DNA of 64,000 nt from contig NC_021846.1 in the NCBI RefSeq assembly GCF_000439435.1, positions 992,001 to 1,056,000 of the forward strand, given 5' to 3'. The notes below the pieces were generated by a model. It saw only the letters and a program-made list of their open reading frames with translations, did not search any database and was not told the DNA's origin. Source of the stretch: Spiroplasma taiwanense CT-1 (GTDB lineage: Bacteria; Bacillota_I; Bacilli_A; Mycoplasmatales; Mycoplasmataceae). Below, piece after piece: positions 1 to 46,752 of this stretch (within the stretch, counting starts at the first letter, position 1; every line of letters starts with the position of its first letter). The translations under genes and the position numbers were made by a program.

Positions 1-115
1 GTGAAACCACTGTATCATAAATTGCTTGCTGATGTGGTTCAATTCCTCAAACTTTGTCATTTAAATTAATTTCTTTAAGAGCTGATCCCTTAACATCTAA
101 AACTTGTGCTTTCAT
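1..115 (-). CDS. rplD: 50S ribosomal protein L4, 5' part (cut by window edge)
   Basis: Only the first 38 codons are visible, starting at the ATG at 115 and running off the left edge. The peptide begins MKAQVLDVKG and contains IEPHQQAIYDTVV, the conserved start of L4, which binds 23S rRNA and lines the exit tunnel. Codon 24 is TGA where L4 has a tryptophan-like position, one sign of the mollicute code. AGGAGG lies upstream of the ATG, just beyond the rplC stop. The gene follows rplC as in the standard S10 operon order. L4 is the autoregulator of this operon in enterobacteria; whether that applies here is unknown. Confidence 0.93.
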
Positions 116-134
116 GTTAGCAATTTCCTCCTAA

Positions 135-851
135 TTATTCAGCATTTGATGATGTTTCTTCTTGTGATTGTATTGAATTTGATTCAACACTTTTTGCACT
201 TCTTGATAATAATGAAACTGCATCATTTGCCTTTCTTCCTTTGACATTTTGTTGGATTACAACAAATCCTTTTCTTGGACCAGGAACTGATCCTTTAACT
301 AAAACTAAATTTCTTTGTTCGTCAACTTTAATTACTTCTAAATTTTGAATTGTCACTTGTTCATGACCCATGTGACCTGCCATTTTCTTTGATTTGAAAA
401 TTCTATTAATAATTGCACCCATTGATCCAATACCACGGTGATAACCTGAACCGTGAGCCATTGGCCCTCTTGAGTAATTGTGTCTTTTAATAGCCCCTGC
501 AAATCCTTTACCTTTTGATATACCTGTAACGTCCACAAATTCACCAGCATTGAATACGTCGGCTGCATTTATAACTGCACCAATTTCGTATCCTTTCATA
601 TCTCTGATTTCTTTTACGAAGCGCTTAGGTTCAGATTGAGCTTTTTTGAATTGACCCATATCTGGTTTATTAATTAAGTTAGCCCTTTTATTGATTGTTC
701 CAAGTTTTAAAGCTTGATAACCATCTTTCTCAACTGTTTTAACTTGCAAAACATTGTTTGGTTCTACAGAAATTACAGTTACAGGAATTAACTTACCGTT
801 TTCGCTAAAAATTTGAGTCATTTCTAACTTCTTTCCTAAGATTCCTTTCAT
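135..851 (-). CDS. rplC: 50S ribosomal protein L3
   Basis: This 238-residue protein is an early-assembly large-subunit protein. The start [15 protein letters not shown] and the central GKGFAG...[12 protein letters not shown] segment are the L3 hallmarks; the central loop reaches toward the peptidyl transferase centre. The last 25 or so residues (Ser/Gln/Glu/Asn-rich) form a tail longer than in most bacterial L3 proteins. AGGAGG precedes the ATG. The gene lies between rpsJ and rplD in the S10 operon. Confidence 0.98.
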
Positions 852-1358: not shown

Positions 1359-4300
1359 TTATTCATTTCCAATTAATGATGAAAGTCTAATTCTTTTAAT
1401 TAAAATCATTACTATTGTATATGCAATTGCAAATATAAAAACCCCCGCTAACAGTACAACTGGAAATAAAGCAATATTTATTGTTAAGGGTACAGCTATA
1501 TTTAAATTTAATAACACAGAAGGAACTAAATATTTTGTAATTAATCATATTACTATAATTCCTAAAGAAACTGCAAGAATCGCTATTGGTAAAAAAATTC
1601 ACAAAATTATAGAATTAATTTCTTTCATTGTATATCCTTGAATTCTCATATAACTCATAAATTTTTTATATCGTCCAATAAACAAATCTGTTATTAAATA
1701 AATAACAATCATAGCTGTTATCATTGAAATTGTTATAAAGATTGTTGAAATTAAAATAATTGATGTAATTAAATTTTCAATTGCTTCTTTTTTAACTTTT
1801 ATATAATCTGTATAGCCAATAGCTGAATTAAAATATTTATCAAATGAAACAGATGCATTATTTGAATTAATAGAATTTAAAATTAATCTTTGCATTTGAT
1901 CTGAAATCTGTCTATTTTTACTCATTTTTGCATTACTTCAAATATTAATTGAATTTCCATTTTCAAATTTTTGTCTTGAATCAAATGATTTGTTAAAACC
2001 TAAAAGTTGATTTGCATACAATTGTTCTAGATAAATTTTATTACTATCATAAAGTTTTTCAATACCAACAACTTTTAATTTTTTTTGTGATTTGCTTGTT
2101 ACAAAATTATTTTTTAGTAAACCTTCATTTAAAGCAATATTTATTCAATTATTAGTTCCAGATGTTAAATCAATAAAGGAAAATTCTATAGGTTTTCCAT
2201 CTTTATCATATTTAAATATATTAAATGGATGAATTACACTATCTAGTGATGAAGTTGATGATATATTACTATATTCATCATATTCCTTATTTACTTTATT
2301 TAGTATTTCTTGATTAAAGTTATCAATATCTAAAATTACATTTTGTAAATTTAGATATTTTTTATAACTATTTGTTTCATAGTCATAGTAATAAAATTTC
2401 TGAGTGTCTAAATCTGTAATTGAATACGACATTTTACTTAAATCAAACTTATATAAATCTAAATCTTCATTTTCAGAATCTTTATATTTTCAATCATCTT
2501 CTTTTAAAATTTGTAAACTATTTTCATTATTCACATAAGATAATTTTTCGGATTTTATATTAATATTAAATTCATCTCCAATTTTAAATCCTTCAAGTTC
2601 CATTTTTTTATTTATCAAAATTGGAATGTAATCTAAATTGTTATTATATTTAATTGAGTTTTTATTTAATAAAGATAAATTATTTGATTCATTTTCTAAA
2701 TCTATACCATAACCGATTATATCTATATTATTTTTATCTTCAATTTGCCCATTAAATCTTGTATATAATTGGTCTTCATTAAAATTTACTAGAACTTTTG
2801 AAAAATTAAAAGTAAATTTTTTAAATTCATTTTCATCATTGTTTCAATTTTGTTTTACTGTTGAAGGAAGAATATTATTTGAAATACTCTTTATGCAATC
2901 ATTATATTGATTTGGAGAATCATTTAATTCAATTACTTCTTAGCCAAATAAGGTTGGCATTACTTGACAAGTAAAATTATTAAAATTTGTTTGAATTCAC
3001 TTACTATTTGTAGTATTTTTTGAAATTGAATCAACTTGTTTTGCATAATTTAAAAAGTCTTCCATAACTCCTGAAGAAATTAAACCACCTTTAAATGTAA
3101 GAAGAATATTTGTAAGAACATTATCAAATGAACTTCTAAAAACATTAGACTTATTTGCTCAATACTCAATATTTTCTGTTGAAATTAAATTTTTATAACT
3201 ATTTAAATCTTTAATATTTACATTAAATATAGAAGCTTTCATATTACTTTTTCTTATATTTTCATCACTTTGATAAAATGAATATCTTGTAAGTGGATTA
3301 TTTGAAATTGTATTTGTATAATTATAATCATTATTATACTTAATATTTCTATAATATTCATTTGACATATTTGTAAAAATGCTAGGAACTATAGAACAAA
3401 GTGTAATTACAAGACTAGAAACAATTAAAACATTTGCAAAAAACAAATAAATCCTTAACGGATGAAGAAATTATAATTCCTCTTAATTTTGAAGTAAAAT
3501 TTAAATATTTGATTTTTGAAAAAGCTCTCGTCAACAAAAGATTTGGTTTCATATTCTTACTTGGTGATAATAACTCTAATGGTTTTTGTCTAATTGTGAA
3601 ATATGTAGTTACTATTACCATCAAAGAAACAATTGAAATGAAACTAATTCATGAAATTATTAAAATTTGCCAGTCAATATTAAATATTGTTGGTATATTA
3701 AAATACCTTTCAAAAATATTCATTAATGGTGTCTGTAAAAATAAACTAATTATTCAACCTAATGGCACTAAAATTATCACTGGTATTAACATATAAAAAA
3801 ACATAATTAATAATAATTTTTAAATTTAAAATACCAAGAGATTTTAAATTTCCAATTTGTGATCTTTGAAAAATTAAAATTTTCCTAAAAATATTATAAA
3901 TAACAAAACACAAAGATAAAGCAAATATTAAACAAAATACAATTGCTATTATATAAAAGCCTGAAACTATTGATCCATAAAATGTACTTCTAAAATTTAA
4001 TGAATAGGTATCATCAAAAGATTGAATATTAATTGATGATAATTTATTATTTGTCATATTTGAATTAATAGTTTCTGATACACTTTTCAATTTATATACA
4101 TTATCTGCAAAATAGGTGCTAAAAAGGGCTTTATCTGCTTCTAAATTTAATTTATCACTATTTTTATAGGTTAAATATGCTCTACTTACATCTTGATATT
4201 GTTCATTATTTAGTTCAGTATTAAAAACTTTTGAAATAAAGTATTACTTATATAAAATACGGCTTCATTTTCTTGATTAATTAATAAATCTTCTTCATAA

Positions 4301-5286
4301 ATTGTAGGATAGACATTTAAAGAATCAACCCCTGTTGCATCAAGTCTATATTTTTTTGTTGTATTTGGAAATAATTCATATTCTTGACCTAATACTAAAT
4401 TATTAAATTTGGCATAACCATTTGAATCCATAAAACTATTTTCAGTAAAAATATTATCAGATTCATTTTTTAAATAAATTGTATATAAATTTTCATTGTA
4501 AAAATGCACACTGTAATTTTCATTACCTGGTTCTTTTTGGTTATAAAAAGCTGATATATATCTAAATTTATTTCCATTTTGAGTTCACATTACAGTTTCA
4601 TTTGTTGTTTTAACTTTAAAATTGCTTAAGTCCCCTAACAAATTGAAATAACTATCAAATCAACTTCTTTGAGTAAGTGAATTTTCTAAAATAATATATC
4701 CATTTAAATCAATCCCAGTTTTAAATATATCTCTTGAATCATGTTTCTTTATATTAAAGCTTGCATAATTTTCATAGAGATTTTTTTCCACTATTTGAGA
4801 TTTATTTGATTTAAATAAAGAATAAATATTTTTTGAAAAATAATATTTATTATCTTGATCAAATTTTCCAACTCTTCCAATAGATTCATTTGATGTTGAT
4901 AAATTCAAGAAATCTTCAATATTTTTTCCATCTTCATTTTTATTATATTCTTCAATTAAATCTTGTTTAATTGAATAGGTCAATGCTGAATTATTTAAAT
5001 AAAACATAAAATTAAATATATCTATAGCAGAATCTATTTGAGAATTTGTTAAATTTTTTTCTAAAAAATAATTATTTTTTAAATAAATTTGACCAATTAG
5101 TGAGTTTTTAAAATACTTTGATGAAAAATTAAATCGATAAAAGTCTCCAAATAACGAAATAAATATTTTTAGCAAAATTGAAAAGATTAAAAAATTATAA
5201 TTTATAATTAAAGATTCAAAAAAAGAAAATGAAAATAAAATACATAAAAAATAATGTACATTCTTAAAAGAAATTATACTTTTCAT
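1359..5286 (-). pseudogene. Decayed FtsX-type ABC transporter permease
   Basis: This would encode a roughly 1300-residue permease of the MacB/FtsX type, related to the intact neighbour at 5392-10419. It starts at the ATG at 5286 after AAAGGAG. A four-helix FtsX-like domain is visible around 3.4-4.0 kb and another at the C-terminus (1359-1800), with long extracytoplasmic segments between. Four lesions break it. Near 4220 the frame changes in an A/T tract (one base missing). Near 3797 a T7 run has one T too many. Near 3435 a T6 run has one T too many. At 2940-2942 there is an in-frame TAA between PTLFG and EVIELND; TAA is a stop in this code. Sequence on both sides of every lesion still reads as permease. 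Homopolymer assembly errors could explain the shifts but not the TAA. Confidence 0.85.
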
Positions 5287-8300: not shown

Positions 8301-10419
8301 CACCAAGAAATCAAGAAATTGGTATTACTATTAATAATAAAATTAATCCATATGAAATATATCCAAATGATATTTGTGAATTTTTAGCACCTAATGCTTT
8401 TAAAATTCCTATTTCTGGAGAATTAAAATTTATTGTTTTTCTAACACTTATAATAATTGTAATTAAACATATTAATAAAATTATTGAGCAAGTAGAATAT
8501 AAAATTATTGAAAAAGTTTTTAAAACAATTGGTGTTAAATCCCAATTTCAAGAAAAAAAATGTTCATTATAAGAAACAAGTTTTGTTCCATAATCAATTG
8601 TTAAAGTTCCCTCACTTTTAATATTATTTAAATCATCATAAATTTTATCTTTATATGAAAATGATAATGAATTATATAAGGAAATATCTTTTTTTACATC
8701 TGTTTTATTTTTACCTGTAAAAATTGTATATAAATTGGTTGTTGATATTTTTGCATCAGCAGTTTTTATTACTAATTCTAGTGCTTCAGGTGAAATAAAT
8801 ATTATGGCTCCTTTTTTATTATTTGGAAATGGAACAGATAAATCAGCTAAAGGAAAGTTTGTATATGGATCTGCTGCATATCCCGAAACAGTTAAGTCAA
8901 AGTCACCGACTTTAATATTTTCTCCAAGTTTAATTTTATTTTGTTTTGCATACTGTGGATTTATTAAAATTTCATTTAATGTCCTTGTATTTTGTCCCTG
9001 GTATATCGTAAGGTTTGATTTAGTTTGATTATCCATTAGAACAAATCTATATTGTTTTTCTTGATTATTATCTGGTAAGTTTAATTCTAATCTTGAATAC
9101 ACATCTAAATTAGTAACAAATGATAATAAATTAGTTCTATACAGATAACTCGTTGGAATTGAAGCATTTTCATTTAAATAATTGCTTTTATCTTTAAATG
9201 CCTTTTTATATCTAAGTGTATTTGCAATATTTCCTTCTTCTTTTAAAAGAGTTAAAGCAGCACCACTGTCATTTGCTTTCACCAAATCATTTTCATATGT
9301 AATTTGAATTAATGAACCTCTTGCACCATTTTCATAAATATTGTCTCCATTTTTTAAGATATTAGCAGTTTGTAAATTAGAAGAATTAACTTTTTGATCT
9401 CATTCCTTATTATTTTCATTTACTATAAAATTTTCATTTACATTATCGTTAATATCTAATTTTTTACCAAATAATCAACAATAAATAACTGAAGCATTAT
9501 TAATATTTGATTTAGATAAGCCACTGTTTGTAGTAAAGTAATCTTCTCAATTTATTTTTTGCAAAATTGCTTGATCCATTCAATACTGTACATAATCATG
9601 CATCATTTTATTTAATTGAGCAATTATTGAAACTATTGAATAATTTATATATACATCTAACTCTTTAAGAATTGTTTCTTTTGTAAAACCACTTTGAATT
9701 TTTTTATTAATAAATTGAGAAATTAAACTATTGTCATTAAATTCACTTATTTCAAGCTGATTTTTAATCAACTTTATTGTTTCTTGAACAAAATTTGCAA
9801 AACCATTTAAACCATTTTTTGTTGATGTATAAACAAGATAGGGAGATTTATATTCATAATCATTGTATTTATTTAATGAATCGAATCTATATCAAAAATT
9901 TGTTTTATCTCTATTTGACATTGTTTCATCCATACCATATGCATTAAAGTATATTGGTTTAGATTCATCATAGTTAAAATCAAACCAAGATTTTGTAAAA
10001 TCCGACGAAATTAACTTTTGAAATATTTTTTTAAAATTATCACTTTCAAATGCTTTTGTAAGAAAAGTTGATTTATAATTTTCATTATTTTCAAAAGATG
10101 AAATATTAAAATTATAAGCAATAGATTTATCATCAAATTGCAAAAATTGATTTGAAATAAAATCCACAAATGGAGTAAATTCTTTTGATTCACTTTGATT
10201 TGATGATTCAAGAGTTTGCGTCTCTATATAGTCAAACTTAGCAGTATTTCCCATTGTTCTGTTATATTCATATTCTAATCTATCATTAATTGAAAATGTG
10301 ATACTTAATATTAAAGATGCAAAAAAACCTAAAATAACAATTAAAACAAATTGTATTTTGTATTTAAATATTCCCTTGACACCTTGTTTGGTTAACAAAA
10401 AAGCATTAATTTTTTTCAT
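5392..10419 (-). CDS. Giant FtsX/MacB-type ABC transporter permease (1675 aa)
   Basis: The frame is open from the ATG at 10419 to the TAA at 5392, with many TGA codons read as Trp; I checked it for TAA and TAG. One membrane segment lies at about residues 18-44. A first FtsX-like domain with several helices spans about 625-770 and contains EIGILKALGA, the usual coupling motif. Another helix lies near 805-830, and a C-terminal FtsX domain at about 1525-1670 contains KRFMIVMKSLGYSN. The two long Asn/Ser/Lys-rich stretches between are probably extracellular. Such proteins pair with a separate ATPase and move lipids, peptides or lipoproteins; the substrate here is unknown and no partner ATPase is adjacent. 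GAGGGTG precedes the ATG. The related gene just downstream is a pseudogene. Confidence 0.85.
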
Positions 10420-10497
10420 ATTTTCACCCTCTACTAAAAACTATTATAAGAAAAAAAGTAAAAAAATACAAATATTAGCTTTTTTACTTATAAACTA

Positions 10498-13173
10498 TTA
10501 TAAAATTTTTCCTTGAGCAAAAGTTTCATTTCCTCCACCTTTTACTTTAAAGTCTTTTGTATTTTTAAATATTTCAATTGCTTTAAATTGTGAAGAAATA
10601 CTTTCACTAACTGAAACAATATAAATACCATTTTGTTTATTAACAAATTTAATTATTAAGTTATCAAATTTATTTTGGAGTTTATCGGCTAATGCTTTTA
10701 ATTCTTTCATATCCAAATCATTAATTTCTAAGGAAATTTCATTTATACCTTTATCTAAAATTGGAGAAATGTTATTATATTTTATTAATTTTTCTTCTAA
10801 CAAAATATCTTCGATTTCTTTTTGATAAATTTTAAAAGAATTTTTTAATTCATTAACTTTAGTTTTTAATGAAAATAAATTATTTTTATTAACTGATATA
10901 TTATTTATTTCATTTATTGCTTCTTCAATCTCATAATTTTTTAATCTATTTTTTCAATTATCAAATTTATTTATTAATCCTGATATTTCATTTTTTTGTT
11001 TTAAAAATTGTTCTCTTAAAAACAAAGAAACTCCACTATGACTTGTAACTGCATGATATCTATAAACACCACTTCCCTTTGATTCAACTTCTGTTATAAG
11101 TAAATCTTCAATATCTTTAGAGTTTTCAACATGAGTTCCTCCACAAAGTTCACAAGAAAAGTTACCAAACTTAATAACTCTAACTTCAGAACCATATTTT
11201 TCTGTAAATAAAGCTAATGCATTATGTTTTTCAACTGCCTCATCTAATGAACAATAAATGATTTGTCTAGGAATTTGATTATTTATTTCCCTTGTCATTA
11301 CATTATGAATTTTTTCAATTTCTTCTTGAGACGGTAATCTATTATAACTTATATCAATTCTTAATCCATTTTCATCATTATAACTACCTGATTGAAGTGC
11401 ATTTTTGCCTAATACTTCTTGAATTGAAGATTGCAATAAATGTGTTCCTGAGTGATTTTTCATTGTATAGTATCTTTTTTCACTATCAATTTTTGCTATG
11501 ACTTTATCTCCAATATTTAAAATGCCATTTATCTGAACTTTATGAATATGTTGTTTATTTGGTCCTACCTGAACATCTAAAACATTATGTCTATTCATAT
11601 TATCATCTATTAAAACACCTGTATCTGCTGCTTGTCCACCTTTTTCTGCATAAAATGGACTTTCATCTAATGTCAAAAATACAATTTTATTTTCTGCACT
11701 ATTTAAAATTACTTCTTCTTCAAAAATAAAATTAACTTTTGTTATGATTTCTTCTAAATCATAACCAACAAAATCACTTTTAATATCTAAGTTAGTTAAA
11801 ATTGCAGATTGTTTATTTCAAGCTTTTTCATTTTTTCTTGAATTTCTTGCCAATTCTTTTGAGTCTTCTAGTAATTTTTCATAACCTTTAATATCAACTT
11901 CAATATTTTTTTCGGTTGCCAGTTCTACAGTTAATTCTATTGGAAATCCAAATGATTCAAATAATAACAATGCATTTTTATCACTAATTTTTTTTTCTTT
12001 TTCCATTATTATTTCAAGTGAGTCATAACCTTTTGATAAAGTGCTTAAAAATCTGATTTCTTCACTTTTTATAACTTCTTTAATAGATTCACTTTTTTCT
12101 TTTAAATAAGGATAAAAAAAAGACATTGTATTAATAACTTCATCTACTAATAAATATAAAAATGCATTTGCTATTCCTAATTTTCTTCCATATACAGAAC
12201 TTCTTCTAATTAATCTTCTAATTATATAACCTCTATCTTTATTTCCCGGAAATACACCATCACTAATTGCAAAAACTGTTGCTCTAATATGATCAGCAAT
12301 TACCTTGAAAGCAGTATTAATTTTAGTTTGTTCTATTTTTTCATTAAAATAATTATCGATTGAATATTTAAAAGATTTATCACATAATTCTTCTATTTTT
12401 TTTATTGTTGGTAAAAAAATATCTGTTTCAAAATTTGTTGGAGTTTCTTGAAAGACAGAAACAATTCTTTCTAAACCAGCTCCCGTATCAATATTTTTTC
12501 TTGGTAATTCTGTATAGTTATTATTACCATCATTATTAAATTGTGAAAAAACAATATTTCAAATTTCAACATAGCGATCATTTTCAATATCATCTTTTAA
12601 TAATTTTGAACCAATATTTTTTGGGTCTCATCTAATACCTCTATCAAAAAATATTTCTGTATTTGGACCACAAGGTCCTTGACCAACATCTCAAAAATTA
12701 GTTTCTTTTGTTCCTTTAAAAATATGATCTTCTTTTATTCCAATTATTTTAGTTCAAATATTATATGCTTCTTTGTCTTCTTCAAAAACTGTTATATATA
12801 AAAGTTCAGGGTTCATTCCAAATCATTTATTAGAAGTCAACAATTCTCAAGCCATCTCAATTGCTTCTTTTTTAAAATAATCTCCTATTGAAAAATTACC
12901 AAGCATTTCAAACATAGTTTGATGTCTTGCAGTAACTCCAACATTTTGAATGTCATTAGTTCTAATTGACTTTTGTGAGTTTGTAAGTCTTGGTGAAGGT
13001 GGATTCATTCTCCCATCAAAATATGGTTTTAAAGTGGCCACTCCTGAATTAATTCAAAGCAAACTTGGATCATCTACAGGTACTAAACTTACTGGCTCAA
13101 GAAAAAAATGATTTTTTGATTTGAAAAAATCTAATCACATTTTTCTTATTTCATTTGATAAAAGTTTTTTCAT
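10498..13173 (-). CDS. alaS: Alanyl-tRNA synthetase
   Basis: The 891-residue enzyme charges tRNA-Ala. The N-terminal class II core has motif 1-like [32 protein letters not shown] and GLERI. The editing domain keeps its zinc/active-site pairs HSGTH (about 573-577) and CELCGGTH (about 672-680). A C-Ala domain ends in [13 protein letters not shown]. Length is normal. The start [13 protein letters not shown] follows AGGAGAATAATAAA. The preceding region has an extended -10 motif but no T-box-like leader was seen. Confidence 0.97.
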
Positions 13174-38489: not shown

Positions 38490-39830
38490 TTAAAATTTTT
38501 TGTTTATTTTTAATAATTTAAAACCGAGAATTATATAAACAGTTAATATAAAACTTATACTAATTATTGATTGAGATGCATATTGTAATCCTGATAGTCA
38601 AGGGTTTTTAACAATATTGTTAGAATTTATAAATGTTGTTCCTAACATCTCTTTTAGAGTAAGAAAAATTTCATTGTTTTCAGCAAAATATTTATTTAAT
38701 TCAATTCCTATTTTATTATCATTTCAAATTTCCACTATATGTTGAATTTGGTTAGATGAATATGTAGTAATAGAAATAATTAAAATAATTTCAATAAACA
38801 TAATTAAAAATTGTAATTTGAAAAATAAATTATTTGTATTTCAACCTTTTGTATAAACTAAAAAGAAAATGCATATTGTTCCCATTAAAAAACCAGAAAT
38901 AATTATTGGCAAACTTTTAATAATAAAATTCGAAACATTACTATTTGTCAAAGAACTTAAATTTACATCCTGACTTTTAATTAAATCTGGCGCAATTGTC
39001 GATCAATTTAATAGTGAATTAATCTCTGAATTAAAAATAGACATAATAGAAATAAAAATTAATTGAGGTAAAAAAACAAGAAATGTTGCAGAAATTAATC
39101 AAGCTGAGATATTTTTACTATTATTTATTACTAATTTATTTAAAAAATAGCTCAATTTACTTTGATCCAAATTTTTTCTTATAGAGGTTGCTTCAATTTT
39201 TTCTTGCTTTTTTATCTCAAGTGAATTTAATAGTATTGCAAAATATATAATTATCACCATAATTTTAAAAATACAAATTCATCATGTAAAAGTATCTGAA
39301 GTTCATCTATATTGAATTATATTAATGCCATTTTCACTATAATATATTTCACTAAATTTTTTTTGTAAAAAAAATAATTCTTCCACGAATGGTTTATTAA
39401 TATTTTGTTTTGCTAAAAATATGTAAAAAACATGAAATCTTGAATAGTTGTATTCAGAAATTGAGCTAAAAATTATTGAAAGAATAAGTAATAGAGTAAT
39501 TAAAATTGTAAAAGCTACTTTTATTGTTAATTTTATTTTTTTTCCAAAAATAAAGGGAATTAAAAAAATAAAAATAAGTGTAAGTATAAAAATTGCAAAA
39601 GCAGCTCACATAAAAAATAGCATTGACATTTTAGTAACTATAACTGACGGACCAAAATTTTTTTCAATTAAAATAAAATAATTAAAATAAAAATTAATTG
39701 CTGGATTCATATAGTAAACAATTATAAACGAAATTGTGGGTGTAATAAGAATTAAAAAAATTACTAAAGTTTTAAAAAATTTATCTCATATTTTTATTGA
39801 CTTGTTTTCCACAAATATTTTCTTATCCAT
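38490..39830 (-). CDS. Polytopic membrane protein, about eight helices (446 aa)
   Basis: Unrecognised. It starts MDKKIFVENKSIKIW after GGAGATAGTA, and its first 8 bases overlap the prmC stop. Hydrophobic segments lie near 14-38, 66-95, 100-122, 178-200, 235-260, 295-318, 325-350 and 410-436. I checked the frame for TAA and TAG and found none. There is no ATP-binding or known transporter motif. Last gene of the operon that begins with the ABC-ATPase-like protein, so it might be a transporter partner, but that is speculation. Confidence 0.72.
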
Positions 39831-40653
39831 TACTATCTCCATTTTTTAAAACAAAATACCTTCAATGATTTGAAAAATCTTTTTTAAATTCTAAGTTATA
39901 TCTTACTCCTTTTGAATTAAAAAGTAATTCTATTTCCTCTTTTTGATTAAAACCAAACTCACTTATTATTACTAAATTATTATTTAATAAAAATAATTTT
40001 TCAAGATTTTTAAATAAAACTTTATAAAAAAATAAACCATTATCTTTTGCAAATAAAGCCATTCAAGGTTCAAATAATTTAACATTTTTTTCAATATTAA
40101 TATCATTTTTATTAATATAAGGTGGATTTATTAAAATAAAATCCATTTTTAAATTTTTTTCAAAAATAAAATCTAAAAAATTAGAATAAAAAATTTTTGC
40201 TTTCATTTTTTTTATTCTTAAGTTTTTTTTGCAAACTTTTAAAGCACTTTTTGAATAATCAGATAAGTATAAGTTAATATCATTAAATTCTTGTTTTAAG
40301 CTAATTCCAATACATCCACTTCCACAACATAAATCTAATACATTTTTATTAACCAAATCAAACTTTAGAACTTCCTCTACAATTAATTCTGTTTCATATC
40401 TTGGAATTAATACATTTTTATTAATAAAAAAATCACTCTTATAAAAAAATTTTTTATTAATAATATATGCAAGTGGTTTTTTAGTTCTAGAAACCTTATT
40501 AATAATATTTAAAAATTTTTTAAATTCCTTTGGATTTAAAGTATCATCAGAAATAAAAAAAGCTTTATTTTTAAGGAATAAAATGATTTTTTTAAAATTA
40601 TCTTCTGAAATTATTGAAGGAACATATTTAATTTTTAAATCAAAAATTTTCAA
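39823..40653 (-). CDS. prmC: Release factor glutamine methyltransferase
   Basis: The 276-residue methyltransferase modifies the GGQ glutamine of release factors. It has the SAM-binding VLDLCCGSGCIGISL near 105-118 and the catalytic NPPY at about 177-180. The start is TTG at 40653, one base after the prfA stop, with AGAGG 7 nt before it. One TGA Trp is read in FEPWMALF, and another in the tail NHWRYFVL. Its substrate, prfA, is the gene just upstream, as in many bacteria. Confidence 0.93.
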
Positions 40654-40654
40654 T

Positions 40655-41740
40655 TTAAACCTCTATTTGTTGAGCAATTATATTTTTTTGCTCATTATTT
40701 ATTAATTCTGTAATTATTTCTTCTAAATTACCTTCCATTACTTGATCTAATTTATTTAGAGTTAAATTAATTCTATGATCTGTGATTCTATTTTGTGCAT
40801 AATTATAAGTTCTAATTTTTTCACTTCTTGCACCTGTTCCTACCGCTGTCTTTCTAACACTAGCTGCTTCGCTCTGTTGTTCTTCTAACTTTGCTTCATA
40901 TATTCGAGCTCTTAACATCGTCATTGCTTTATCTTTATTGTCGTGTTGGCTACGTCCATCTTGTGATGCTGCAACAATTCCTGTTGGAATATGAGTAATT
41001 CTAACAGCTGAATCTGTTGTGTTAACATGTTGACCTCCAGCTCCAGATGATCTGTAAGTATCAATTCTCAAATCAGAAGGTTTTATTTCAACTTCAACCT
41101 CACTAATTTCTGCTAGAACTGCAACTGTTGCAGTAGAAGTCTGAATTCTACCTTTGGATTCAGTTTTTGGAACTCTTTGTACTCTATGACTTCCTGATTC
41201 AAATTTCATTTTAGAATATACCTTATCTCCCTTTACCATAAATGAAATTTGACTAAACCCTCCTGCTGTTGATTCACTTTGATCTAATATTTCTACTTTT
41301 CAATTATTTTTTTCTGCAAATTTTAAATATAATCTAAATAAGTCACCGGCAAATATATTTGCTTCATCTCCTCCTGCAGCACCTCTAATTTCAAAAATAA
41401 CATTTTTATCATCATTTGGGTCTTTTGGAAGTAATAGTAATTCAATTTCACCCTCAATTTCTTCGATTTTACTTTGTGATTCTTCTAATTGAGATTTTAC
41501 AAAATCTCTCATTTCCTCATCTTTTTCAGTTTCTAATAAAGACTTTGCATCACTAATATCATTAAATAATTTTTTATACACTTGATATTTAATAACAATA
41601 TCTTCTAGGTTTGCTTTCTCTTTATTTAATTCCTTTAATAATTTTATGTCCTTTAAAATTTCTTCACTTTGTAAATTTTCTTCTATAATAGACACTCTTT
41701 TTTCCATAATATCTAATGCTTCTTGAGTTTTTTTATTCAT
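40655..41740 (-). CDS. prfA: Peptide chain release factor 1
   Basis: The 361-residue factor reads UAA and UAG. It has the [17 protein letters not shown] segment with the universal GGQ and ends normally. It starts [15 protein letters not shown] after GAGGTGATT. No RF2 gene is expected because UGA encodes tryptophan. The preceding tdk and following prmC form one operon with it. Confidence 0.97.
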
Positions 41741-41755
41741 ATTAATCACCTCTAT

Positions 41756-42358
41756 CTATTTTGGTTTAATATAGCAATGTCGGCATCTTGCTTCATATTT
41801 TTCAATTGCGGAAATAACAATTATAGGCTCATTTGCTTTTGCTGGTTTACCATTAATTATTCTTTGCGTTCTATTTGCATTTCCTCCACAAACATGACAA
41901 ATTGATGTTAATTTATCTACATATTCTGCCTGCACTAATAATCTATCTACATTTTGAAAAGGATTATTTTTAAAATCTTTGTCTAAACCATTAACAACAA
42001 CAATTATTCCTTCATCAGCTATTGAAGAAAGAACTTCTACAATATTTGTATCCAAAAATTGAACTTCGTCTACTCCAATTATATCAATAGATTTTTCTTG
42101 GTTTTTCAAATTTACAATTTCCTTTAATTTCTCACTATTTTCCACTGGTATTGATTCAATACTTAAACCTGAATGTGAAAAAACATCATTTATAGAATAT
42201 CTTCGATCAATTAAAGGTTTAAAGACTAAAACATTTTGCTTTGCATATTGATATCTTTTTAATCTTCTTATAAATTCTTCTGTCTTTCCCGCAAACATAC
42301 ATCCTGTTATTAACTCAATTCAACCTCTTTTACTTTTATGATTCATTCTATAGCTCAT
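41756..42358 (-). CDS. tdk: Thymidine kinase
   Basis: The 200-residue type II thymidine kinase has the P-loop GCMFAGKT near residues 19-26, the Walker B-like IIGVDEVQFLD and the zinc pairs CHVC and CRHC. It phosphorylates thymidine for dTTP synthesis. It starts MSYRMNHKSKRGW, with one TGA Trp upstream of the P-loop. GGAGG, at the end of the DHH gene, serves as ribosome site. Confidence 0.96.
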
Positions 42359-42362
42359 TATA

Positions 42363-43313
42363 CTATTCCTCCAAATTAATTAATTTTTCTAAATCTCCTA
42401 CTAAATTTTCTAAATCATCTCAATTTTTAATTTTTGCCCCTGATGCTAATCTATGGCCTCCCCCATTATACATTTTTGCTACATGATTAACATCAAATTC
42501 TCTACTTCTTAATGAAATTTTTATATTTTCATTTTTAACTGATTCATAAGCTAAAAACCAAATTTTTACTTCCTTAATACCTGATAAAACATTTAAACAA
42601 CTTTTAATCTCCTCTTCTCCCAAAACTGTCTTTTCAAAAAAATCTCTTGTTAGTTTAATATACGCAATTTCATTATTTTTAGAAAAAATAGCTTTATTAA
42701 AAATATCAAAGTGAAATCTTGTTATCTCCAAGGTTCTTAAATATAATGAATTATAAACTTCATTAATATTAATTCCCCTTTTAATAAGAATTTGGGCTGC
42801 ATAAAAAGTTTGAGAATTCACTTTATTAAATAAAAACCTTCCTGAATCTGTAACTAAACCATAATAGAGAAAAGTTGCAGCTTTTTTTGAAATTTTTAAA
42901 TTCATTTCATTAGCTCAAATTGTAATTATTTGTGTACATGCAATTGCAGAAATATCAACTAATTTATTTTTTGCAAAATCATCAATTTCTAAATGATGAT
43001 CAATTTTAAAAATTTCCTTAACTTGATCTTTGAATTCAAAATCTATTCTTTCAAAATTTGCAACATCCACAGAAATTAGCAAGGATTTTTTAATTATTTC
43101 CTGATTTAATTCTTTTTCATCAAAATCACGAATTCCTAAATTTAATTGCTCTCCCACAATATAAATCTTTTTGTTTTTAAAATTATCCAAAATAATTTCT
43201 TTTAGAGCTAAAGCACATCCTTGTGTGTCTCAATCAGGAGAAGCGTGTTTTGCTATAATAATAAAATCATTTTTATTAATAATATCTATTAAATTTCTAT
43301 ATTCAACTTTCAT
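42363..43313 (-). CDS. DHH/DHHA1 phosphoesterase (NrnA-like)
   Basis: The 316-residue protein shows HASPDWDTQG (motif I), IFKIDHHLEI (DHH motif III) and the C-terminal GGGHRLASGAKI of the DHHA1 domain. Relatives (NrnA, MgpA) degrade nano-RNAs and convert pAp to AMP. AGGAG precedes the ATG at 43313. It is the second gene of the operon, 13 bp after the ABC-ATPase-like gene and 4 bp before tdk. Confidence 0.92.
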
Positions 43314-43326
43314 CAAAACTTTTCTC

Positions 43327-45171
43327 CTATAATACTTCTAATATTGAGTCTTCAGATATATAAATATTGATTTTTTGATCATCATTTAATTTTTCAGTAG
43401 AATAAAAAATTAATTTATTATTATTTGAAGTGAATTCATATATATTTTTATCATTAAAATAATCTATTTTTTTAGCACTTCCATACATTTGAATAATTAT
43501 ATTTTTTGATTCCTTTTTATGTAAAACTATTTTAAAAGGATCAAAAAGAATTTTTCCACTATTTTTAAAAATAGTAGATTCAATTTTTACTTTTTCTCCA
43601 AAAATATTGATTATTTTTCCATCATATGAATAAGGTATCATATTACCTAAATGAAAAAAATCATTTCCATATGTATTTCAATATTTTTTTAAAAGTTCAC
43701 TGTAACCTATTTCTATAACTGATTTATCATTTAATAAATTAATTTTGCTTTTTAAATCAACTATATTTTTTAAATCTTTTTCTAAAAAAATTATTGAAAA
43801 TTTTTTATTTATTTTTTTTAAATTTTCAATTGCTTTAACTAGTTCCAAAGCTTCTTCTTTTGTTAATTTTGAAAATATATTATAAAAGATAATATTATAC
43901 TTTTTTAAGTATATTGCTTTGAGTAATTTGAATAAAATTATATTTATACTTTTTCATTTCAATGAAATAAAATCAAAAGAGATTTCAAGATTTTTTAATG
44001 TTTCTACAATATAGCTATCTGCTTGACTATAAATACTCCTAATTGTTTTTTTTAATTTATTTTTTTTATTTTTAAATTCAATTGAATTTCCCTCTTCAAG
44101 TTCATTATTTAATATTTTTTTATGATATCTGTGCATAATTTCAACAATTTTCCCTTTTAAAATTGTTGATTCATCTGCAAGACCTTCAAAAAATATTTTT
44201 TCTTGTTTCTGCCTAAATTCAAAAACTTGATCTTTTGCAACTTTTCTTCAAGAAAAAATTTCTTCCAAATCTTTTAGTTTTTTATATTTTAAATTAAACT
44301 TCCCCATTTCAAAAAGTATTTGTTTTTTTAAATTTTTTAAAATGAATTTATTTTTTGCAATTTTTCTTTTTATTGCAGTTACCTTTAAATCAATAATTTT
44401 TAACTGTTTTCTAATAACAAAATTTATTTGATGAAAATTTAACTGAGAAGATAATTTTTTAATAGATTTATCTTTTGTTTTTTTTGCATTATATTCACAA
44501 GTACATAAAGAATTCAACTCTATAAAGACATATACCTTATCTCATAAGTTTTGTAAAAAAGTTTGAAACAATTCAAAATTTAGTGTTTTTTCAACTAAAT
44601 AATAATAATCTTTAATAATTATTTTTATATAATTTTCTAAATTTGGATATTCTTTTTCTAAATTAATTTCATTAAAATTAACAATATTATCCAAAAATTC
44701 GCTTTGTCATTGTTCTTCAATTTCAATTGAACTATTAATAAATTTTGAAACCATATTTTCAATCTTTTTTCTCATCTCAAGGTCTGTTTCATTATTTTTA
44801 GAAGTTGAAAATGATAAATATGAATACTTATCATTAATATAATTTATTTTTGACATATTATAAAAATCTTTATTTAATAATAATGAAGTATAAAGTCAAA
44901 ACTTTTCAGGTCATTTTCTAAATATTAGACCATGTTTAATTATTTCTACTCTTTTATTTGTTCACTGCTTATTAACTTTATCAAAATTATCAATTTTAAA
45001 AATACCATCTTTAACACTATATTTACCTTGCAAAATATTTTTAAAATTTTTTAGTAACTCTGAATCATAACTTAAAACTGTAGTTAAATTACTTTCTAGC
45101 GCCTCAAAAGTTATTACTTTTGGATTAACTTTTTTATTAATAAATTTTGCATTTTTTATAAAATAACTCAT
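43327..45171 (-). CDS. ABC-ATPase-like protein lacking Walker motifs, with TOBE-like C-terminus (614 aa)
   Basis: One continuous frame, checked for stops, begins MSYFIKNAKFINKK. The N-terminal 60 residues line up with an ABC ATPase start (...ESNLTTVLSYDSELLKNF...GKYSVKDGIFKID), but YDSELLKN stands where GPSGSGKT should be. After a basic, coiled-coil-like insertion (about 220-330), LKNLEISFDF...LFKLLKAIYLKKYNIIFYNIFSKL matches the signature-to-Walker-B stretch without LSGGQ or the DEP box. SIIFLEKDLKN replaces the VTHD H-loop. The last 75 residues resemble a PotA/MalK TOBE fold. This assignment is by eye and not proven. It may be a non-catalytic subunit. First gene of a six-gene operon. Confidence 0.6.
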
Positions 45172-45218
45172 GAAAGCCCCCTATTATATATTAATTGTAT
45201 AACATAATGACTTAAAAA

Positions 45219-45255
45219 TAATAAAACTAGACTTTATTATATGTCTAGCTTTATT
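45219..45255 (-). terminator. Terminator of rpmE
   Basis: CTAGAC/GTCTAG with flanking AATAAA/TTTATT arms forms an imperfect stem of about 12 bp between rpmE and the next gene. Confidence 0.65.
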
Positions 45256-45262
45256 TATTAAA

Positions 45263-45547
45263 TTATTTTTTAGTAGATTTCTTAGCATTTTCTGCTTTTT
45301 GAGCAGCTGATTCTTTTTCCACTTCTGCAGCTTTTGCTTCCTTTTTAGCAAATTTTTCTTTGAATTTTTCTACACGACCTTCAGCATTTGCAAAATTTTG
45401 TTTTCCTGTATAGTAAGGATGGCAATTTGAGCAAGTATCAATTCTAACTTCTTCACTTTTTGTTGATCCTGAGATAAACTCGTTATTGCATGTTGTACAT
45501 ACAAACTTAGCTTCAAAATATTGTGGATGAATGTTTGATTTTGGCAT
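45263..45547 (-). CDS. rpmE: 50S ribosomal protein L31, zinc-binding form with basic tail
   Basis: The 94-residue protein starts MPKSNIHPQYFEAKFVCTTC and has CTTC and CSNCHPYYTGKQ, the C+ (zinc) type of L31. The last 30 residues are a Lys/Glu/Ala-rich extension common in mollicutes. GGACGGTGAG precedes the ATG. Confidence 0.96.
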   Translation of the reverse strand: MPKSNIHPQYFEAKFVCTTCNNEFISGSTKSEEVRIDTCSNCHPYYTGKQNFANAEGRVEKFKEKFAKKEAKAAEVEKESAAQKAENAKKSTKK

Positions 45548-45642: not shown

Positions 45643-46479
45643 CTAAATATTTTTATTAACCTGATTTATTTTGAAATACTTAATACATTTTTTAATAAAA
45701 TTTAAAAACATATTTATATATGGTCCTGCTATAAAAGTAAAAGCTATTGTTCCAATTCCAAAATTTTTAGTTAAAAATAGCAATCTTTGATTTCAATTTC
45801 CAGGAATAAAAAATCAAAAAACTATTCCTGGAAAAAAAATGCAAAAATCAATTATAACTCTTGATTTTAAGTAATTCATATTAGTTAATCTCATTAACTG
45901 ATAACAAATATTATTAAATGGTCCCATTATAATTCCTGAATGAACTCAAAGGGCAATACCAAAGCAAAAAATTGTAAAACCTGCTATAAAAATTCAATTT
46001 CTAATTTCTTGAGTTATTTTATCACTCATTATTTTATCCAAAATTATAACATTTTTAAAATAAAAATTTAGTAATAAAGGAGTCAAAAAGGCAATTATAA
46101 TGTCACTAATTATTATTATTAATAAATTAAATCAAATTTCGTTTTTCCTTATTTTTTTATATTCCTTAATTGTCGGTGACAATGCAAAAATAAAAGAAAA
46201 AAATACCATAATAATATATAAAATATTTAGTGCTAAAATGTAAGTACTTTTAAGTACCTCATCACTCATTGTTCCTGTTTCAAAATTATATTTTCCTATA
46301 ATAGAAGATATATTATAAAGTGTTCAATCAATTTGACTTGCCCCAATTGTTGAAGATATATACATTGCTATTCCCAATGTACTCAAAATAAATCCTAGTA
46401 AAAAAAGTAAAATTTTCACTATAACCCTTAAATAATTTGTTTTTAAATATTTCATTTTAGATAAGTATAATATTTTCAT
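45643..46479 (-). CDS. YczE/YitT-like polytopic membrane protein (278 aa)
   Basis: The frame, open only with TGA as Trp, begins MKILYLSKMKYLKTNYLRVIVK and ends at TAG 45643. It has about six hydrophobic segments. The early LGFILSTLGIAMYISSTIGASQIDW and the later WVHSGIIMGPFNNICYQLM resemble the repeated GxGxPxD-type segments of the YczE/YitT families. NCBI uses a name such as SPE_1075/MLC_0560 family for this kind of spiroplasma protein; this is from memory. No transport substrate is known. A weak AAGG lies upstream of the ATG. Confidence 0.7.
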
Positions 46480-46504: not shown

Positions 46505-46527
46505 AAAAAATAGACATAATTGCCTAT
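46505..46527 (-). terminator. Terminator after the small helix-turn-helix gene
   Basis: ATAGGC and GTCTAT (one G-U pair) with a 6-nt loop, followed by a U-run on the minus strand. It overlaps the stop codon at 46524. Confidence 0.55.
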
Positions 46528-46697
46528 CTTTCATATTTCATTTTAATTGCTTCTTTTCCGCCTTTTTCATAATTTTTCACTCAATTGCGCAAAGAAACAA
46601 CACTAACGTTTCTAGTTGGTGCAAACTGAGAAGCAGAAACTCCACTTTTTTTAAAATCTTCAATTATTTTTATTTTCTCTTCCACATTTAAATGCAT
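46524..46697 (-). CDS. Small helix-turn-helix protein, transposase OrfA-like (57 aa)
   Basis: Begins MHLNVEEKIKIIEDF after GGAGTG and ends at TAG. GVSASQFAPTRNVSVVSLRNWVKNY is a helix-turn-helix like that of IS3/IS911 OrfA and related domains, where the recognition helix precedes YxxGG. It contains one TGA Trp. No transposase core, inverted repeats or partner gene is adjacent, so it may be a domesticated DNA-binding protein or the remains of an insertion sequence. It lies between fba and the YczE-like gene. Confidence 0.65.
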
Positions 46698-46752
46698 AAT
46701 TAACACTCCCAATGTCATACTAACATTAATTTGCATAAAAATATTTTAGGTT

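Follow-up and report, generated by a model that had tools for sequence, protein, structure and literature searches.

The closest described relative of the gene reported here is MMSYN1_0138 of Mycoplasma mycoides/JCVI-syn3.0, which was noted in 2019 as homologous to ATP-binding cassette (ABC) proteins with a non-conserved ATP site (PMC6629657). It is followed by 0139, encoding NrnA/YtqI, and then by 0140, encoding thymidine kinase (PMC6609329, PMC4993169). The gene was retained in the synthetic minimal cell, where its function was left open because the ATP site is not conserved. We have analysed a 64,000-nucleotide stretch of the Spiroplasma taiwanense CT-1 genome (NC_021846.1, positions 992,001 to 1,056,000; hereafter the window), in which a gene that we call X (43327..45171, minus strand) encodes a 614-amino-acid protein, with an ATG start and eight TGA codons read as tryptophan under table 4. 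X stands in the same X-NrnA-tdk order and its product is likewise ABC-like with a non-conserved ATP site; judged by gene order and published description, X is the orthologue of MMSYN1_0138. The results presented below make it almost certain that X is a pseudo-ABC protein and not an ATPase, and they show an ABC nucleotide-binding domain (NBD) in which selective constraint has left the ATP site and now bears on an accessory insertion.

When used as a single sequence, the X protein had no match in Pfam, NCBIfam or the PDB sequences. Family members from other genera do match models of the MalK/PotA/UgpC class (best E 1e-18). AlphaFold2, given a 29-sequence alignment as input, produced a model with a predicted local distance difference test score (pLDDT) of 88.7 and a predicted template modelling score (pTM) of 0.79. 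In a Foldseek search with this model, ABC ATPases of the MalK/MsmX/UgpC/PotA class ranked first (E ~1e-7), and the nearest solved structures were MalK/MsmX/GlcV/PotA-type ATPases. VIA-align matched the NBD to ABC ATPases with Z ~18-19 across ~225 residues, and the whole protein to MalK-type chains over ~320 residues spanning 1..614, the C-terminal OB domains included. This C-terminal OB/TOBE-like domain (residues 491-614; 43330..43701, on the minus strand like all features within X) was also recovered by a TOBE-only X profile, which matched UgpC with E=2e-5, while Pfam OB_MalK had no match in X. According to the model, then, X has an ABC NBD fold of the MalK/CUT1 type with a C-terminal OB/TOBE regulatory domain; the Foldseek and VIA-align matches rule out a non-ABC fold. 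An earlier reading of this DNA, made from its letters (the sequence-only reading), had proposed a PotA/MalK-type layout through to the TOBE end and a structure prediction as a check of it; AlphaFold2 and both structural comparisons bear that layout out.

The positions of the lost motifs were mapped by profile alignment of X to intact UgpC. In place of the Walker A motif GPSGCGKS, X has SYDSELLK (residues 34-41; 45049..45072), and the P-loop is absent there, as a table of the family also indicates. The equivalent of the LSGGQ signature is WKSIN (residues 406-410; 43942..43956), that of Walker B is IIFYN as compared with LLLDE (residues 427-431; 43879..43893), with Y430 replacing the Asp and N431 the Glu, and that of the H-loop is LEKD as compared with VTHD (residues 463-466; 43774..43785). 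The sequence-only reading had called these four losses correctly, to within one or two residues. Indeed, all examined X orthologues, drawn from three families of the order, lack all four motifs at the aligned positions, so that the comparison of orthologues which that reading had called for revealed a shared loss and not a recent decay. No X orthologue with intact ATP motifs was found within the order, and a sample of the wider class searched with X gave just partial matches to ordinary ABC ATPases. The most distant members keep faint traces, LSFLERR and ILLLENPF (compare LSGGQQQR and ILLLDEPL in UgpC), which fits what is expected of an old motif loss. These results explain why ATPase assays on X would probably fail.

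With Walker A and the signature both missing, X could not complete either composite ATP site by pairing with an intact NBD. This bears on the idea that X is a regulatory pseudo-NBD still able to bind an ABC permease, be it UgpAE, PotBC or a different one, and to inhibit or modulate its transport activity without using ATP. The full MalK-type architecture of X, OB/TOBE regulatory domains included, is consistent with such a role, as are the position of its presumed paralogue UgpC beside UgpA/UgpE and the presence in this genome of a PotA operon with its permeases. However, besides completing neither composite site, X is not flanked by permease genes at any examined locus, and many X-bearing genomes lack UgpC at E<=1e-60. 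We therefore consider a regulatory pseudo-NBD unlikely. A function as transporter motor is disfavoured, and so, on the same grounds of incomplete sites and absent permease genes, is the ATP-independent transporter subunit suggested by the sequence-only reading.

One full-length X orthologue per genome was present in 37/37 sampled genomes of the same family, with identities of 43-57% within the genus and 27-36% outside it, and more distant full-length orthologues occur outside that family, in two more families of the order. A contig scan with the single X protein found nothing; one with a sub-alignment recovered relatives in Mesoplasma seiffertii, M. lactucae, M. grammopterae and Williamsoniiplasma lucivorax. 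The whole-gene ratio of nonsynonymous to synonymous substitution rates (dN/dS) in close pairs was 0.02-0.24, indicating that X is under purifying selection. The absence of the motifs from every examined orthologue, combined with this selection on the gene, shows that the motif loss is not due to chance. Selection had already been proposed from the fully open frame; the conclusion holds on the dN/dS values, but the open frame by itself did not show it. These values and the full-length copies in three families rule out a recent pseudogene. They also bear on the possibility that X is a decaying remnant, kept by its operon position and translational coupling to NrnA. The lost core motifs would suit a remnant, as would frameshifted copies in two genomes, but the dN/dS range, the full length and invariant residues across three families and the retention of a counterpart in the minimal genome make this explanation highly improbable. 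The frameshifted copies belong to two genomes of one Spiroplasma-like genus (L189:2772-4693 and L190:3220-5116), and each carries a single frameshift with overall identity still high; in L190 NrnA also looks frameshifted, and in L189 ~1.8 kb separates rpmE from X.

The model contains a helical insertion of ~270 residues (residues 101-378; 44038..44871) between the Q-loop region and the signature, at the same place as in UgpC and of similar length. Residues conserved across the three families sit mostly in this insertion. D211 (44539..44541), C223-x-C225 (44497..44505), whose cysteines are presumed metal ligands, and H350 of the H347-x-Y349-H350 motif (44122..44133) are invariant in 66/66 sequences, while Y349 and W308 (44248..44250) are each conserved in 64/66. 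H347 is present throughout the home family of X. One of the other two families has Tyr in its place and C-x-C extended to C-x-C-H-x-x-H; the remaining family has Lys, and the extension there is to C-x-C-x-C. Thus, H347 is replaced only where an extra Cys/His stands beside C-x-C, and the appearance of extra ligands exactly where H347 is lost matches the prediction of a four-ligand metal site. We consider it probable that this Cys/His set is a zinc-type site. The earlier suggestion that X binds a different ligand survives in this form, as a putative C-x-C...H-x-Y-H metal site in an insertion that the sequence-only reading had missed, together with the UgpC relation and the 2019 remark on MMSYN1_0138.

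The model has helix 180-214 running back to the base of the insertion just ahead of C-x-C, which in turn precedes helix 246-292, and helix 309-354 begins at W308 and finishes just past H350. This helix order would place the Cys/His set at the base, where the insertion joins the ABC head, and W308 at the tip. When modelled alone the insertion was confident in just 1/5 models, and among PDB folds it had no significant match, the best values being E 0.14 in Foldseek and, in the generic helical-bundle range, Z 8.7 in VIA. Mean entropy in the ABC core was 2.2-2.3 bits in X as compared with 0.7-0.8 in UgpC, whereas in the insertion it was 2.16 bits in X and 2.51 in UgpC. Conservation in these alignments is inverted: UgpC has a nearly invariant core and a variable insertion, and X a variable core with its invariant residues in the insertion.

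The intact UgpC of this genome (L105:2213-4096, 627 amino acids) also has a large insertion between its Q-loop and signature regions, and across the order UgpC orthologues have Walker A-to-signature gaps of 311-388 amino acids. Profiles of X and UgpC align end to end (hhalign E=1.1e-24, 599 columns), and the X profile matches an intact UgpC of another genome over its full length (1-620, E=1.5e-27). An insertion-only X profile matches UgpC insertions collinearly with E=5.6e-6 to 1.3e-4, the best decoy having E=50. With the insertion included, several UgpC proteins score higher (e.g. a rise from 67.5 to 122.8 bits), but PotA and certain other UgpC proteins score lower. The most likely reading of these comparisons is that X is a paralogue of mollicute UgpC, of ancient origin and with its insertion at the same place; a UgpC-type parent is likely, though not proven. 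A second NrnA-like DHH gene (L105:4109-5038) adjoins UgpC in this genome and two relatives; it scores higher against the NCBIfam NrnA model than the NrnA beside X does (301.8 and 202.8 bits, respectively), although neither reaches the cut-off of 350. The UgpC-NrnA pair was considered as the duplicated ancestor of X-NrnA and dropped, as it occurs in three genomes only and in the opposite gene order. Very large insertions are also found in the oligopeptide-type (OppD/OppF-like) ATPases of this genome, proteins of 561-728 amino acids (L106:8180-10366, 1429-3582, 10341-12050 and 3595-5280, minus strand), where, unlike in UgpC and X, they lie after Walker A and before the Q-loop region.

The order rpmE-X-NrnA-tdk-prfA-prmC is common to the three families, although the rpmE-adjacent genes differ in some loci. 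In the window, all on the minus strand, rpmE (bL31; 45263..45547) forms the upstream boundary of the X-NrnA pair. An NrnA-like DHH/DHHA1 phosphoesterase with intact catalytic motifs (42363..43316) begins 10 nucleotides after the X stop codon, followed by the thymidine kinase gene tdk (41756..42358), prfA (40655..41749) and prmC (39823..40653), the last two named from sequence and conserved order. The sequence-only reading had X at the head of this series, and the gene order is confirmed; the membrane protein it placed at the end corresponds to a 450-amino-acid product of membrane-protein appearance downstream of prmC. In the 91-nucleotide gap between rpmE and X, positions 45180-45260 contain a weak hairpin (CTAGAC...GTCTAG), a T-rich run and then a promoter-like stretch, which suggests that X probably heads its own transcript. 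Further upstream, a short open reading frame (46524-46736, minus strand) lies between one for a 278-amino-acid membrane protein (45643-46479) and fba; it has a weak match to a transposase helix-turn-helix (PF01527, E=2e-4, below cut-off) and is possibly an insertion-sequence remnant.

X and NrnA occur together in every examined locus of the three families. Over 22 loci, the NrnA start lies at -14 to +33 nucleotides from the X stop, and the DxD, DHH and GGGH motifs of NrnA are intact in 22/22; in the window, the 3' end of X overlaps with the ribosome-binding site of NrnA. In Mesoplasma lactucae (L167:7905-9836), two tandem NrnA genes lie between X and tdk. Since two other families (G043 and G070) have rpmE, tdk and prfA directly adjoining one another, with no X-NrnA between them, the pair looks like a two-gene insertion. 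This history also bears on the idea of X as a factor associated with RNA or the ribosome, with an ABC-like head and a helical hairpin, co-expressed with prfA/prmC beside rpmE. The gene neighbourhood is indeed translation-related, and ABC-derived folds work on ribosomes in other families (ABC-F). However, X would have joined the existing rpmE-tdk-prfA order later, with NrnA, and it has a single ABC domain and no ATP motifs. A ribosomal role thus seems to us rather doubtful.

We propose instead that an ancient MalK-type ABC ATPase, likely a UgpC paralogue, became fixed as the non-ATPase X, having entered the genome together with the NrnA gene between rpmE and tdk. At the base of the helical insertion, the invariant Cys/His set would provide the four ligands of a zinc-type site, and the ABC head would be retained as a rigid scaffold without an ATP cycle. 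X might then be a structural or regulatory partner of NrnA from the next cistron, perhaps holding it or presenting nucleic acid to it; NrnA would break down oligonucleotides or phosphoadenosine phosphate (pAp) to supply salvage, with tdk next in order. Taken whole, a metal-stabilised, non-ATPase scaffold derived from a UgpC paralogue and plausibly serving NrnA has about an even chance of being correct. NrnA as the partner, taken by itself, is a tentative assignment. The most specific version, a zinc-dependent, ATP-free ABC-derived adaptor for the NrnA nanoRNase/pAp phosphatase with the insertion and not the core as its working part, is possible but speculative. If true, an ABC transporter motor was recruited into nucleic-acid turnover and kept in a minimal cell. 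Papers on the uptake of oligonucleotides through Ugp-type systems yielded nothing decisive.

Several points weigh against this proposal. The significant insertion matches by hidden Markov model all come from the UgpC proteins of one genus, and insertion-only hhalign of X against UgpC is weak (E=0.04; controls 0.48-0.92). The ABC core alone scores UgpC, RnsB and PotA alike, for which reason a choice of parent from the core was dropped; only the insertion favours UgpC. The clustering of the ligands is taken from helix order in the model, and the metal itself is a prediction. DHH paralogues are kept in families without X, NrnA acts alone elsewhere in bacteria, and operon neighbours such as X and NrnA need not interact. 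Finally, the frameshifts in L189 and L190 may mean that X is dispensable there or in recent decay, or may be sequencing errors. Nevertheless, with specific residues (D211, C223, C225, H347/H350 and W308) and a candidate partner in NrnA, this minimal-genome gene is now directly testable.

Among known systems, mollicute UgpC shares with X its domain order, a large helical insertion of similar length at an identical site and the MalK-type OB end. In other respects X is the reverse of UgpC, which keeps all ATP motifs, adjoins UgpA/UgpE and has a variable insertion without the C-x-C/H site. Degenerate-site ABC transporters (CFTR, TAP, TM287/288) also have altered ATP motifs, but keep one consensus site in the NBD pair, whereas X contributes to neither. 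Rad50/SMC proteins resemble X in that long helices are inserted into the ABC head between the two lobes, and phage SMC/Rad50-like models came up among the structural matches. However, Rad50 keeps its ATP motifs and carries C-x-x-C at the tip of its coiled coil, while X lacks such a zinc hook both in motif and in model position, having C-x-C at the presumed base, no ATP motifs and a MalK-type OB end. In the case of MMSYN1_0138, the cited text is silent on the insertion, the metal-type site and the UgpC relation, and the literature searched, which left out most subscription papers, described neither the insertion nor the ligand pattern and named no partner. An ABC-like protein without a conserved ATP site was thus already known; the UgpC relation, the inverted conservation, the compensated Cys/His site and the co-occurrence of X with NrnA are new.
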